DNA from: Candidatus Rokuibacteriota bacterium
GTDB taxonomy: Bacteria > Methylomirabilota > Methylomirabilia > Rokubacteriales > CSP1-6
Direction: 5' to 3'
Assembly (NCBI GenBank): GCA_003220435.1
Contig: QHSL01000017.1
Coordinates: 1-49,746 of the forward strand
Length of the DNA: 49,746 nucleotides
Positions within the stretch are counted from its first letter, which is position 1. Each line of letters begins with the position of its first letter. Both the position numbers and the translations under genes were made by a program. The notes beneath the pieces are model-generated. The model had not been told where the DNA came from. It ran no database searches and saw only the letters and a list, made by a program, of their open reading frames with translations. Shown piece after piece: positions 11,242 through 20,574 of this stretch.

Positions 11242-11339
11242 TCCGTCGTCGAGTTCTCTCACTGTTCTGAGAGGTTACGAGGAAGTTGAGCGAATCACTT
11301 CAAGAGGGTATGTAATCGAGGAGAAAAAGGGGGAGAGCA

Positions 11340-11702
11340 ATGGCCACGATTCTCTACGTCGGTACCGCAGGCAGCGACGATCCCACGCGAGCGGGACTGC
11401 CGTTCAACTTCGCGTTGGGCGCGGTCGAGGCCGGTCACCAGCCGATGATCTTTCTCGCTGGCGAAGCCGCCTACCTGATGAAGGACGATGTTGCCGGGGC
11501 GGTCATGCCCGTCGCGATGCCGCCGCTAAAGGACATGCTGGCAGCAGTCATCGCTCAGAGAGTGCCGATCTTCGTCTGAGGGAAGTGCTCGGTGGCCCGT
11601 GGGGTCACCGATGTGGATCTCAAGAGCAAGAACGCCCAGTTCATCACCCCGAAAATCTTTGCCGAGAAAACCGCCGCAGCCGACAAGGTGGTGTCGCTGT
11701 AG
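11340..11702 (+). CDS. DsrE-like selenoprotein (in-frame UGA at codon 80 read as selenocysteine)
   Basis: A DsrE/DsrF-like fold protein, 120 residues if UGA at 11577-11579 is read as Sec. The part before the UGA (MATILYVGTAGSDDPTRAGL ... AVIAQRVPIFV) is a DsrE N-terminal region that would lack its end. The same frame continues after the UGA with GKCSVARGVTDVDLKSKNAQ up to a TAG at 11700. In homologues the strand ending PIFV is followed by a Cys, so the UGA sits exactly at a cysteine site and gives a U-x-x-C pair (U80, C83). A strong hairpin starts ten bases after the UGA. A GGGGGAG ribosome site precedes the ATG. DsrE-type proteins carry or transfer sulfur on such cysteines. Ordinary annotation would report a truncated 79-residue protein. 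Confidence 0.82.
11590..11610 (+). promoter_or_regulatory. Candidate bacterial SECIS hairpin of the DsrE-like gene
   Basis: The arms CGGTGGCCC (11590-11598) and GGGTCACCG (11602-11610) pair fully, with one G-U pair, around a GUG loop; opening the last pair gives a five-base loop CGUGG with G at position two. The loop lies 19 bases after the UGA, within the range known for bacterial SECIS elements, which also carry a G among the first two loop bases. Confidence 0.75.
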
Positions 11703-15823: not shown

Positions 15824-16765
15824 TCACCCCTTCGAGGTCGTGCTCGTCTTCTTCTTGAGGCGCCGTGCGTCCTTCCTCCCGTGTGCCGTGTGCTCGAGGA
15901 GCTCCATGAAGGCGCGGGCGCTCGCGGTGACCCTGCGCGATTCATGGTGCAGGACATGAAAGTGTCGTTGAATCCGAACGCCACGGAGTCGGAGTGCGCG
16001 GAGCCGGCCGGTAGTCGTTTCGCCGCGTACCGCATACACCGATGCAAACGCAACGCCCAGACCGGCCATCACGCCTTGCTTGATCGCTTCAGTGTGGTCG
16101 AGTTCCATCGTCACCCTGAACTTGACACCCGCCCGCTGTAGCGCGCGTTCCGTGACGCTTCTGGTCGCGGATCCTGCCTCCCGCATGAGCAGAGGCTCAT
16201 CGGCAAGCGCCTCGGGCGCGATGTCCCGCCGCCTGGCCCACTGGTGTCGTGGCGGGACGATGAGCACCAGCTCATCAAGCATCCCTGCGGCCAGACATTC
16301 CTGGCCCGGGCTGACGCTATGCCCTCCCACAATGCCGAGATCGAGTTCGCGCTCTCCGACGCGCTGCTCGATGACCTGAGAATTGGCAATTTGGAGCTTC
16401 AGATCGACGCCTGGATACCTCGTGCGAAACGCGGCGACGATGCCGGGCATCACGTAGAGCCCTGGTGTCGTGCTGGCGCCGATCAAGAGTGATCCGTGAG
16501 CCAGACCATCGAGCTCCGAGACCGCTTGACGCGCTTCCTCGACCGAGGACACCACGCTAGCGGCATATCGCTCAAAGACACGGCCGGCCTCGGTCATGGT
16601 CACCTCCTTTCCCCGACGGTAGAACAGAACCTTTCCCAGCTCGCCCTCGAGCTCGATGACGTGTTCGGAGAGCGTCGGCTGTGACGAATGGATTTTCTTC
16701 GCGGCACGGCTGAAGCTTTTTTCTTGAGCGACGGCGAGAAACACCTCGAGCTGGCGCAACGTCAT
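15824..16765 (-). CDS. LysR-family transcriptional regulator
   Basis: A 313-residue LysR-type regulator. The N-terminal winged helix-turn-helix begins MTLRQLEVFLAVAQEKSFSR and includes AAKKIHSSQPTLSEHVIELE. The effector-binding domain covers about residues 90-295, with GLGVAFASVYAV near the hinge. It resembles CysB/CbbR-like members in its HTH, but the ligand is unknown. It is divergent from the metallo-beta-lactamase-fold selenoprotein gene, with 95 bp between the two starts. LysR proteins usually control the divergent gene, so it is the expected regulator of the selenoprotein-MFS-PLP/NifU operon. Confidence 0.92.
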   Translation of the reverse strand: MTLRQLEVFLAVAQEKSFSRAAKKIHSSQPTLSEHVIELEGELGKVLFYRRGKEVTMTEAGRVFERYAASVVSSVEEARQAVSELDGLAHGSLLIGASTTPGLYVMPGIVAAFRTRYPGVDLKLQIANSQVIEQRVGERELDLGIVGGHSVSPGQECLAAGMLDELVLIVPPRHQWARRRDIAPEALADEPLLMREAGSATRSVTERALQRAGVKFRVTMELDHTEAIKQGVMAGLGVAFASVYAVRGETTTGRLRALRLRGVRIQRHFHVLHHESRRVTASARAFMELLEHTAHGRKDARRLKKKTSTTSKG

Positions 16766-16860: not shown

Positions 16861-17598
16861 ATGATCTTCCGCCACTTCCTGTCACCGAAGACGGGCTGCG
16901 CCAGCTACCTGTTTGGCTGAGGGGGCGCCGCCTGCTGCGCTGTGGTGGATCCACAGCTTGAGATCGAGCCCTACCTCGAAGCCGCCGCTCAGAAGTCCAT
17001 GCGGATCACGCATATCTTCGAGACCCACGTCCAGGCCGATCATCTGTCCGGGGCTCGCCGTCTCTCGGATGCGACCGGCGCCCCAGTGATCTTCCACAAG
17101 TCAGCACCGGTCGAGTTCCCACATCTCGATGTTGAGGACGGGGAGCGACACGCGCTTGGCAACGTGGTGCTCTCGATCCTCCACACGCCGGGGCACACCC
17201 CGGACAGTCTCTCGATCCTGGTCACGGACAAGACGCGGGCCTCGGAGCCATGGTTCGTCCTGACCGGCGATACGCTCTTCTCCGGCGGGGTCGGCCGCCC
17301 AGACCTCATTGGCGCACGCTCGGAAGCGATGCTCGCCGAACAGCTCCACGAGAGCCTGCACAGCAAGATCATGACGCTACCCGATCACCTCGAAATCTTT
17401 CCCGCGCATTTCGGGGGTGCGGCGTGCGGCAAAGGTCTGAGCGGGAAGCCCGGCTCGACCATCGGCTTCGAGCGTCGTTTCAACCCGGCACTCCAGGCTA
17501 GGTCGAGAGCCGAGTTCGTGGATTTCGTCCTGGCGGACCTTCCCCCCCAGCCCGAGGCCTTCGCGGTGAATCGCCGGCGCAACCTGACGGGCACATGA
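16861..17598 (+). CDS. Metallo-beta-lactamase-fold selenoprotein, persulfide dioxygenase-like (in-frame UGA at codon 20)
   Basis: A 245-residue metallo-beta-lactamase-fold protein if UGA at 16918-16920 is read as Sec. It begins MIFRHFLSPKTGCASYLFG, then U20, then GGAACCAVVDPQLEIEPYL. Homologues have Cys at this place (YLFGC...AVVDP). The strong AAAGGAGG ribosome site lies before the ATG at 16861, and nothing comparable precedes the GTG at 16942 that a standard caller would choose. Metal motifs are ETHVQADHLSG (Gln where many relatives have the second His), HTPGHTPDS, LTGDTLFSGGVGRPDL and FPAHFGG. Overall it is closest to the ETHE1/persulfide dioxygenase and rhodanese-linked hydrolases that act on glutathione persulfide. 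It overlaps the following MFS gene by four bases. Confidence 0.85.
16939..16957 (+). promoter_or_regulatory. Candidate bacterial SECIS hairpin of the metallo-beta-lactamase-fold gene
   Basis: A perfect 7-bp stem, GCTGTGG (16939-16945) with CCACAGC (16951-16957), closes a five-base loop UGGAU with G at position two. The loop begins 25 bases after the UGA, within the 16-37 base range accepted for bacterial SECIS elements. Confidence 0.75.
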
Positions 17599-18845: not shown

Positions 18846-18852
18846 GGTTTCA

Positions 18853-20574
18853 ATGACAAACGCACTGTCACGCGAAACGCTGGCCGCCCAAGCCCTCGGT
18901 GAGATCGATCAAGCGTCAGGCGCTCTCTCGCCGGTGATCTACCCATCGACGATATACGAGCGGCGCCCCGACGGGAGCTACAGGTCCGGCCTGGCTTACA
19001 CGCGTGCGGACAATCCGACCTACGACCACGCCGAACGGCTGCTCGCCGCCCTGGAGGGTGGCGTCGCGTGCATGCTCTTCGCCTCCGGCAGCGCGGCGGC
19101 AACAGCCGTCTTTCAGTCTCTCCTTCCCGGGGATCATGTCCTCGTCTCGCGGATTCTCTACTGGGGCATTCGCCGGTGGCTCGCGGAGTTCGCGGTCTCG
19201 TGGGGGCTCGACGTCGAGTTCGTCGACACCACAGACCTGGCCCAGGTAAGTGCTGCTATCCGCCCCGGTCGTACGCGCCTCTTGTGGGTCGAGACGCCCG
19301 CCAATCCAATGTGGGACGTTACGGACCTCGCGGCCGTGGCGGAGATTGCCCATGCAGTGGATGTGCGCGTGGCCGTCGACAGCACTGCGGCAACCCCCGT
19401 CTTGACACGTCCCATCGAGTTCGGCGCTGATCTCGTGGTCCACTCGGCCACGAAATACCTGAATGGCCACAGTGACGTCCTCGCCGGCGCCGTGGTCACG
19501 GCGCGCGCTGATCCCTTCTGGGAGCGGATCCGCTCGTGGCGCCGGAGCGCCGGCGCCGTGCTCGGCCCGTTCGAGGCCTGGCTGCTGCAGCGCGGGATGC
19601 GGACTCTGTTCGTCCGGGTGCAGCGTTCGTCCCAGAGCGCTCTCGCCATCGCTCGTCATTTCGATGGGCATCAAGCACTGACCGCGGTGCTCTACCCTGG
19701 ACTGCCGTCTCATCCCAACCACGAGGTTGCGGCGCGCCAGATGACGGGCGGATTCAGCGGGATGCTGTCGCTCCGGGTCGCTGGCGGCGAGGCCAACGCC
19801 ATGAGCGTGGCCGGTGCCGTACGCGTGTTCAAAAGGGCTGTGTCACTCGGCGGCGTCGAGAGTCTCATCGAACACCGCCGCAGTACGGAAGGGCCGTCGT
19901 CACCGGTGCCGGATGATCTGTTGCGTTTGTCGATCGGGCTCGAGGCGCCCGAGGACTTGATCGCAGACCTCGATGCAGCGCTGGAGACGGTCTCGAAGAC
20001 CGGTGCCGCTGGCGGGCCAGTGCCTGAACCTTTACCGACGTCGCTGGCAGGTTCAGCCCTGGCCGCGGCGGTCGTCGCTGTGATCGACCGTAGCGTGACG
20101 CCGTCCATCATCGCTCGGGGAGGTTCGGTACGCCTCGTCGCCATTGAGGGTGATGTGGTCACCCTCGAAGCGAGTGGATCGCCAGGCGCTGTCTTACCCG
20201 CGGCCTCACATATCGAGGCGCTTCTGCATGCCGAGGTGCCCGGAGTAGCCGAAGTGCGAGTCGTGTGGCCTGGGCCCACTCTGACACCGGGCAGTCCCGC
20301 TGATCTGACCGAGCGCGTACGCCGGATCCTCGACTCCGAGGTGAATCCCGCCGTCGCCGCACACCTCGGACGAGTGACCCTGGTTGATGTCGCCGAAGGC
20401 CGCGTGCACATCCGTCTTGAGGGCGGGTGCCAAGGATGCAGCTTAGCGGAGGTCACGATCCGGCAGGGTGTTGAGCGTCTGCTTCGGGCGCGTCTCCCTG
20501 AGATCGCCGGGGTTGTCGACACGACCGATCATAGTGCGGGGACCAACCCCTTCTTTGCGCCGGGTAAGCGATGA
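18853..20574 (+). CDS. Fusion of a Cys/Met-metabolism PLP enzyme with a C-terminal NifU-like domain
   Basis: A 573-residue fusion. Residues 1-380 form a fold-type I PLP enzyme of the cystathionine gamma-lyase/gamma-synthase family: ASGSAAATAVF binds phosphate, VETPANPMWDV and VDSTAATPVLTRP surround the cofactor, and Lys201 in HSATKYLNGHSDV is the Schiff-base lysine. Such enzymes cleave or form C-S (or C-Se) bonds. Residues about 395-470 look like a degenerate NifU repeat without cysteines. Residues about 485-573 are a complete NifU-type domain with Cys526-x-x-Cys529 (EGGCQGCSLAEV), which could hold an Fe-S cluster or accept sulfur. Normal family members end near residue 390. It is the last gene of the selenoprotein-MFS operon. 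Confidence 0.88.
   Translation: MTNALSRETLAAQALGEIDQASGALSPVIYPSTIYERRPDGSYRSGLAYTRADNPTYDHAERLLAALEGGVACMLFASGSAAATAVFQSLLPGDHVLVSRILYWGIRRWLAEFAVSWGLDVEFVDTTDLAQVSAAIRPGRTRLLWVETPANPMWDVTDLAAVAEIAHAVDVRVAVDSTAATPVLTRPIEFGADLVVHSATKYLNGHSDVLAGAVVTARADPFWERIRSWRRSAGAVLGPFEAWLLQRGMRTLFVRVQRSSQSALAIARHFDGHQALTAVLYPGLPSHPNHEVAARQMTGGFSGMLSLRVAGGEANAMSVAGAVRVFKRAVSLGGVESLIEHRRSTEGPSSPVPDDLLRLSIGLEAPEDLIADLDAALETVSKTGAAGGPVPEPLPTSLAGSALAAAVVAVIDRSVTPSIIARGGSVRLVAIEGDVVTLEASGSPGAVLPAASHIEALLHAEVPGVAEVRVVWPGPTLTPGSPADLTERVRRILDSEVNPAVAAHLGRVTLVDVAEGRVHIRLEGGCQGCSLAEVTIRQGVERLLRARLPEIAGVVDTTDHSAGTNPFFAPGKR

Follow-up and report, generated by a model that had tools for sequence, protein, structure and literature searches.

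The window analysed here is a stretch of 49,746 nucleotides from a Candidatus Rokuibacteriota bacterium (contig QHSL01000017.1), and it contains a short DsrE-like gene with an in-frame UGA (Table 1). We found that the frame runs from ATG at 11340 through TGA at 11577-11579, codon 80, to TAG at 11700-11702, with the motif PIFV-U-GKC-SVARGV around codon 80. A first-pass annotation, made from the letters alone, had placed the UGA at 11577 straight after a strand PIFV and had followed the same frame through GKCSVARGV, with a U-x-x-C pair, to the TAG at 11700; the sequence bears this out and gives 120 codons. Genes for a hydrolase, an MFS protein and a DUF1259 protein lie upstream, and an ORF without a Pfam match and a cation efflux protein gene lie downstream.

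Table 1. Features of the selenocysteine (Sec) DsrE locus and of the second candidate selenoprotein gene in the window.
Feature	Position	Strand	Basis or remark
Probable ribosome-binding site GGGGGAGAG	11329..11337	+	Read from sequence, inferred
Putative Sec-DsrE CDS, 120 codons with TAG stop	11340..11702	+	Frame reading; PF02635, 46.8 bits, residues 4-119
In-frame UGA, read as Sec80	11577..11579	+	TGA in 13/13 aligned window-type CDS; 53/53 phylum homologues reaching the codon
Cys83 codon, closing the U-x-x-C pair	11586..11588	+	UGA instead in 19 double-Sec relatives
SECIS-like hairpin of 9 bp with GUG apical loop (11599-11601)	11590..11610	+	Covariation, fold, lowered synonymous change in codons 84-91
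LysR-type regulator	15824..16765	-	Divergent from second candidate; also separates the Sec genes of G048, G050 and G053
Second candidate selenoprotein, MBL-fold, persulfide-dioxygenase-like	16861..17598	+	UGA 16918-16920, residue 20 of 245
SECIS-like hairpin of second candidate, GCUGUGG-UGGAU-CCACAGC	16939..16957	+	Sequence comparison
Cys/Met-metabolism PLP enzyme fused to NifU-like domain, sulfur-related neighbour	18847..20574	+	Domain search

Read through the UGA, the window protein matches the whole DsrE domain of PF02635 at more than twice the gathering cut-off of 22.7 bits, which confirms the earlier description of the gene as DsrE-like. On their own, the first 79 residues reach 19.7, below the cut-off, and the tail alone gave no meaningful PF02635 score. 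The gene also has both marks by which DsrE selenoproteins have been recognized in print, a PF02635 match and UxxC, here UGKC. A profile search of 95 genomes of the phylum (E<=1e-10) returned 55 rows from 43 genomes, two of which are fragments ending before codon 80. Every one of the 53 homologues that reach the codon has UGA there and none has Cys; the TGA is likewise kept in all seven of the closest related loci, from Candidatus Rokuibacteriota. For comparison, the published standard, as given in excerpts of PMC1088965, is a UGA kept in at least two different sequences. The first-pass annotation had counted homologues ending naturally at position 79 as evidence against its reading, and we found none among those read. 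Instead, the protein downstream of the UGA stays conserved to its end in homologues. Mean pN/pS was computed on 13 window-type CDS; of the 17, three near-copies and a paralogue without a usable start were omitted. It was 0.317 for codons 1-79 and 0.285 for codons 81-119, and codon 80 was TGA in all 13. Because pN/pS is as low past the UGA as upstream of it, the region 3' of the UGA appears to be translated and selected as protein.

By motif, we sorted the 53 homologues into four types, named A to D in this analysis. Type A, the window type (UG[KR]C), comprises 17 genes in 16 genomes, with two in the window's own genome. The 19 genes of type B (UGGU or UTGU) are double-Sec (U-x-x-U), with two UGAs six bases apart and one hairpin; an example is G025:C1:1815855-1816211 (L073/L131), and one type B gene lies in a single-contig genome of 2,752,854 bases. 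Type C (UGAC, UTAC or UTPC) has 13 genes, one of which, in G053, goes out of frame soon past the site, and the four type D genes (U[DT][ST]C) usually have a Cys before the UGA (C-U-x-x-C). A wider Pfam search added type E, a separate tandem-pair DsrE with LUG[ST]C. In the 13 tandem pairs read (L092-L105), UGA occupies the DsrE Cys site of the first gene (LUG[ST]C or VUGSC), and its partner carries neither UGA nor Cys at that position; a TGA gene of the tandem type was also read alone (L105). The paralogue of the window gene in its own genome (G000:C94:42621-42979; L064, L130) has the same UGA and a frame change near codon 29, and is either a decayed copy or an assembly error.

The UGA of the window gene stands where homologues have Cys. 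U80 aligns to Cys in Escherichia coli YchN, in plasmid-borne DsrE proteins of Nocardioides and Thioclava, and in three Cys-type DsrE genes of the phylum, one of them in the window's genome. The alignment that the first-pass annotation had proposed as a check thus gives Cys at codon 80 in Cys-type DsrE and UGA in all close homologues. Plasmid DsrE proteins of Microvirga and Deinococcus have Ser at the site (L088, L089); homologues outside the phylum were drawn from plasmid records only, four proteins of which these are two. On a tree of 50 rows (30 of 42 homologues, seven tandem-pair rows and 13 chosen Cys/Ser rows), the window gene falls in an all-Sec clade of 10 rows with support 100/99. Five changes are required on this tree to account for the states U, UU, C and S; it has long branches and does not separate gain from loss.

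Directly downstream of the UGA is a putative SECIS hairpin with a small apical loop holding a G, as expected of bacterial selenoproteins. The 9-bp hairpin with a GUG loop, ten bases after the UGA, is present as first described; its arms are CGGUGGCCC and GGGUCACCG. A folding energy of -23.9 kcal/mol (z = -3.08) was obtained for the 54 nt counted from the UGA, and 2 of 200 dinucleotide shuffles folded equally well. Covariation was assessed on 42 of the 53 loci, of types A-D, with G055d removed for an indel, which left 37 distinct rows, ungapped from the UGA. Over these sequences 88.0% of cells pair, compared with at most 58% for structures slid along the alignment. Double-sided changes occur in six of the nine pairs, in 39 cells against 17.3 in shuffled columns, and none of 500 shuffles reached as high. 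RNAalifold independently recovered the inner six pairs, and the first loop base is G in all 38 distinct hairpin sequences. The hairpin thus covaries across four related lineages. Within the window type alone (14 distinct rows) covariation was no higher than in shuffled columns, so the signal comes from comparing lineages with one another. In window-type CDS, pS in the hairpin codons 84-91 is 0.19, compared with 0.43 in codons 1-79 and 0.48 in codons 92-119. Folded individually, the hairpins of some type C and D relatives (G058d, G070d and G071c) are weak, and an Rfam search with the hairpin gave chance-level matches only.

We also found the complete Sec pathway in the window's own assembly, a Rokubacteria-type MAG of 5.4 Mb in 147 contigs that is 95.5% complete. 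Genes for selA (569 bits), selB (351 bits) and tRNA-Sec, the selC product (69.8 bits), lie side by side on contig C138; ARAGORN reads the tRNA anticodon as tca, that is, tRNA-Sec(UCA). The selD gene (341 bits), on contig C100, has one in-frame TGA of its own. The first-pass annotation had asked for these four genes and had named absence of selA, selB or selC as contrary to its reading; all are present. Across the phylum, selA and selB were each found in 83 of 95 genomes. Among the 43 genomes with a DsrE match, selA was found in 41 and selB in 38, and both were missing in two, G060 (95% complete) and G076 (77%), which may reflect assembly gaps.

We considered two readings in which no Sec is inserted. 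If the UGA were a real stop, the product would be a 79-residue truncated DsrE, and the remainder a decaying pseudogene or the result of a sequencing error. TGA is indeed an ordinary terminator here, ending 17 of the 28 window ORFs of at least 200 aa found by a simple ORF caller. However, the same UGA recurs in all the homologues that reach it, in many separate MAGs and one single-contig genome, purifying selection past it is as strong as before it, and truncation loses most of the family score. We dropped the stop or pseudogene reading on the conservation of the UGA and the selection downstream, and give it very little chance. Reassignment of UGA to another amino acid in this genome, as in a Trp or Gly code, would keep the frame open too, and no result favours it. 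Against it, many ordinary genes end in UGA; selA, selB and the other scored genes have no in-frame TGA and selD has exactly one; and the UGAs considered here fall at Cys-type sites with a SECIS-like hairpin in a genome with a full Sec pathway. The ordinary TGA stops and the sel genes led us to discard genome-wide reassignment, whose probability we regard as negligible. By all the sequence evidence the window gene is a genuine selenoprotein gene: both outcomes that the first-pass annotation had named as contrary to its candidate selenoprotein are absent, and its reading is supported. What looks like a gene interrupted by a stop in this soil bacterium is very likely an intact one, encoding a small sulfur-handling protein with an active-site selenocysteine.

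The window gene is of a kind already known, as DsrE-like selenoproteins with UxxC have been in print since 2005. Excerpts of the published surveys report two from the Sargasso Sea (PMC1088965), one in Desulfovibrio vulgaris (PMC1794560) and DsrE 1 and DsrE 2 selenoproteins in GOS (PMC2398784), and excerpts of two reviews contain DsrE-like selenoprotein rows (PMC9312934, PMC13188914). The first-pass annotation was correct in stating that Sec forms of DsrE had been published. As described in the survey excerpts, the published proteins share with the window gene PF02635, UxxC, a UGA at the DsrE Cys site and a SECIS directly downstream (PMC1088965, PMC1794560, PMC2398784). The motif listed for them is UxxC, whereas this phylum also has UxxU, C-U-x-x-C and tandem-pair forms, a comparison by description only. 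A UxxU DsrE was not found in the excerpted surveys and reviews of DsrE selenoproteins or in literature search listings; the excerpted selenoprotein literature lists UxxU for families other than DsrE. A literature search on selenoproteins of Rokubacteria, Methylomirabilis and Methylomirabilota returned nothing on DsrE in its listings, and an excerpt of PMC13188914 describes a MAG of Methylomirabilota for which 63 selenoprotein genes are predicted. The double-Sec DsrE relatives, and a second selenium gene near the window gene described below, look new.

An AlphaFold2 model, built from the window protein and six relatives (pLDDT 82.7, pTM 0.80), predicts a DsrE fold in which residue 80 ends a strand (77-80) that is followed by a helix (81-85). 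A Foldseek search of the model against the PDB ranked E. coli YchN (1jx7) first (E 1.3e-6; 22% identity in the structural alignment), with DsrE of DsrEFH second and a TusBCD chain third. YchN was also the only PDB sequence match (E 0.33); it has CxxC, with Cys instead of Sec aligned to U80. DsrE of DsrEFH and TusD of TusBCD resemble the window protein in predicted fold and in the position of the active-site Cys78, which binds sulfur in DsrE of Allochromatium vinosum (A. vinosum) and has its counterpart in E. coli TusD-Cys78, according to excerpts of PMC3397948. They differ in having a lone Cys, whereas the window protein has UGxC, and no EFH or BCD gene set lies beside the window gene. The TusD equivalog model TIGR03012 did not match the window protein. 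Membership of the TusD/DsrE heterohexameric relay was dropped for lack of this match and of TusB/TusC-type neighbours. The SirA-DsrE protein YedF, linked to selenium metabolism, likewise has a DsrE domain with CGxC (excerpt of PMC5322559); we rejected membership of this family because the window protein lacks a SirA domain and gave no TIGR03527 match. An NCBIfam search with the window DsrE gave one chance-level match only. The SaoD and SaoD-like NCBIfam families, which we take to be relatives of DsrE named in connection with the Sao selenoprotein system, gave weak matches, far under the cut-off, only for the C-U-x-x-C lineage.

Comparison of 42 loci revealed no constant operon partner of the window type, and immediate neighbours differ between genera, so the operon does not fix the function of the window gene. 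Among the 17 window-type loci, one unannotated family follows in six, and a family whose weak DinB-like match falls under the Pfam cut-off precedes in three. One family, which we read as a putative zinc-type dehydrogenase, follows in 5 of the 11 type B loci compared. The type D genes (L152-L155) stand directly after the same large protein family at four of four loci, and we read this family as a putative class III cyclase.

Past the LysR-type gene, we found a metallo-beta-lactamase (MBL) ORF that starts too late for its family and whose frame extends back through a TGA. The extended frame begins at ATG 16861 with a AAAGGAGG site, and its Pfam Lactamase_B score is 47.3 bits, compared with 35.4 bits from the next ATG. 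In the PDB, this candidate best matches the beta-lactamase-and-rhodanese protein 3tp9 (E 1.2e-49), then 3r2u, and human ETHE1 persulfide dioxygenase matches at 1.4e-17. The residue aligned with its U20 is Cys in both 3tp9 and 3r2u; in 4ysb, the third PDB match shown, it is Asp. A search of the phylum gave MBL matches in 62 of 95 genomes; the matches form two groups, one having an in-frame TGA and the other lacking it. UGA occupies the residue-20 codon in 29 of the 29 loci that hold the N-terminus (30 were fetched, one without it), and five of the eight paralogues without the TGA that were read have Cys at the site. A hairpin stands at a fixed distance in 27 tabulated sequences; one compensating change and a single G-U pair occur among them. 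A 2026 review of prokaryotic selenoproteins makes no mention of MBL, metallo-beta-lactamase, persulfide dioxygenase, hydrolase or ETHE1. The listings of a literature search, with PMC12013261 and a 2026 groundwater paper cited in PMC13188914 outside its scope, contained no Sec MBL or Sec persulfide dioxygenase, judged by titles and the opening of abstracts.

In the window's genus, five genomes (G000, G048, G049, G050 and G053) have both Sec genes on a single contig; in the other genomes holding both they are on different contigs, so we regard the link as local. The two genes are 5.2 kb apart in the window and about 1.1 kb apart in three relatives, with the LysR gene between them. A filter of the window for in-frame-UGA genes by motif, length and composition gave four candidates including the window gene; of the other three, two overlap opposite-strand genes and the third lies inside a same-strand ORF. 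The filter missed the MBL-type candidate because only 19 residues precede its UGA.

We consider it highly probable that the window gene is best explained as a genuine single-domain DsrE-family selenoprotein gene, with Sec inserted at UGA80 under the direction of the hairpin and SelB, and probably with a selenium-boosted role in sulfur transfer or redox chemistry. This explanation is built on several observations: the match to the DsrE family, a UGA where Cys-type proteins have Cys, the genes for Sec synthesis and insertion, the conservation and selection downstream, and the covarying hairpin. SelA, SelB, SelC and SelD would together supply Sec-tRNA, and SelB, acting on the hairpin ten bases downstream, would place Sec at UGA80 instead of allowing termination. 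In the predicted DsrE fold, Sec80 would sit at the end of a core strand, in the place of the sulfur-accepting Cys78 of DsrE and TusD, with Cys83 as its partner in UGxC. The selenol would most likely attack a persulfide, polysulfide or disulfide substrate to give a selenenyl intermediate, which Cys83, as the resolving residue, would release through a Se-S bond. By analogy, we infer for Sec80 the role of the sulfur-binding Cys78 of DsrE, with Cys83 resolving; insertion, substrate and catalytic cycle are proposed in this conditional sense.

If Sec is inserted, the protein might instead act mainly as a thiol-disulfide oxidoreductase or a detoxifying reductase through its UGxC, rather than in sulfur transfer. 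We take this seriously and put its chances somewhat below even. The UGxC resembles the CGxC of YedF, described as redox-active in excerpts of PMC5322559, most UxxC selenoproteins are redox enzymes according to excerpts of PMC1088965, and the UxxU of 19 relatives could form a diselenide. However, the predicted fold and the position of Sec match those of the sulfur-accepting DsrE and TusD, and the sulfur-related neighbour genes in the window fit persulfide chemistry. The locus could also work as a selenium-dependent switch that makes both the 79- and the 120-residue forms, with their ratio as the signal. In every Sec system, decoding of UGA has to compete with termination, but truncation would remove the active site along with a third of the fold, and the sequence offers no use for the short form, so that we judge a switch to be quite improbable. 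Returning to the preferred reading, Sec80 in a sulfur-handling DsrE, it may be, although we hold the idea only tentatively and with some doubt, that persulfide chemistry in these bacteria runs partly on selenium, with radiated Sec-DsrE carriers, including the one-hairpin UGGU forms, and a nearby Sec persulfide-dioxygenase-like enzyme.

The reading of the window gene corrects what automatic annotation would cut at 79 residues, and the function proposed for the full-length protein is selenol-based persulfide or redox handling of sulfur. The Sec persulfide-dioxygenase-like protein, if confirmed, would add to the list of selenoproteins. The double-Sec DsrE genes can serve to test how one hairpin would decode two neighbouring UGAs. 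At a single active site, the phylum offers a natural set of variants (C, S, U and U-x-x-U) for testing what selenium contributes to sulfur-transfer proteins.
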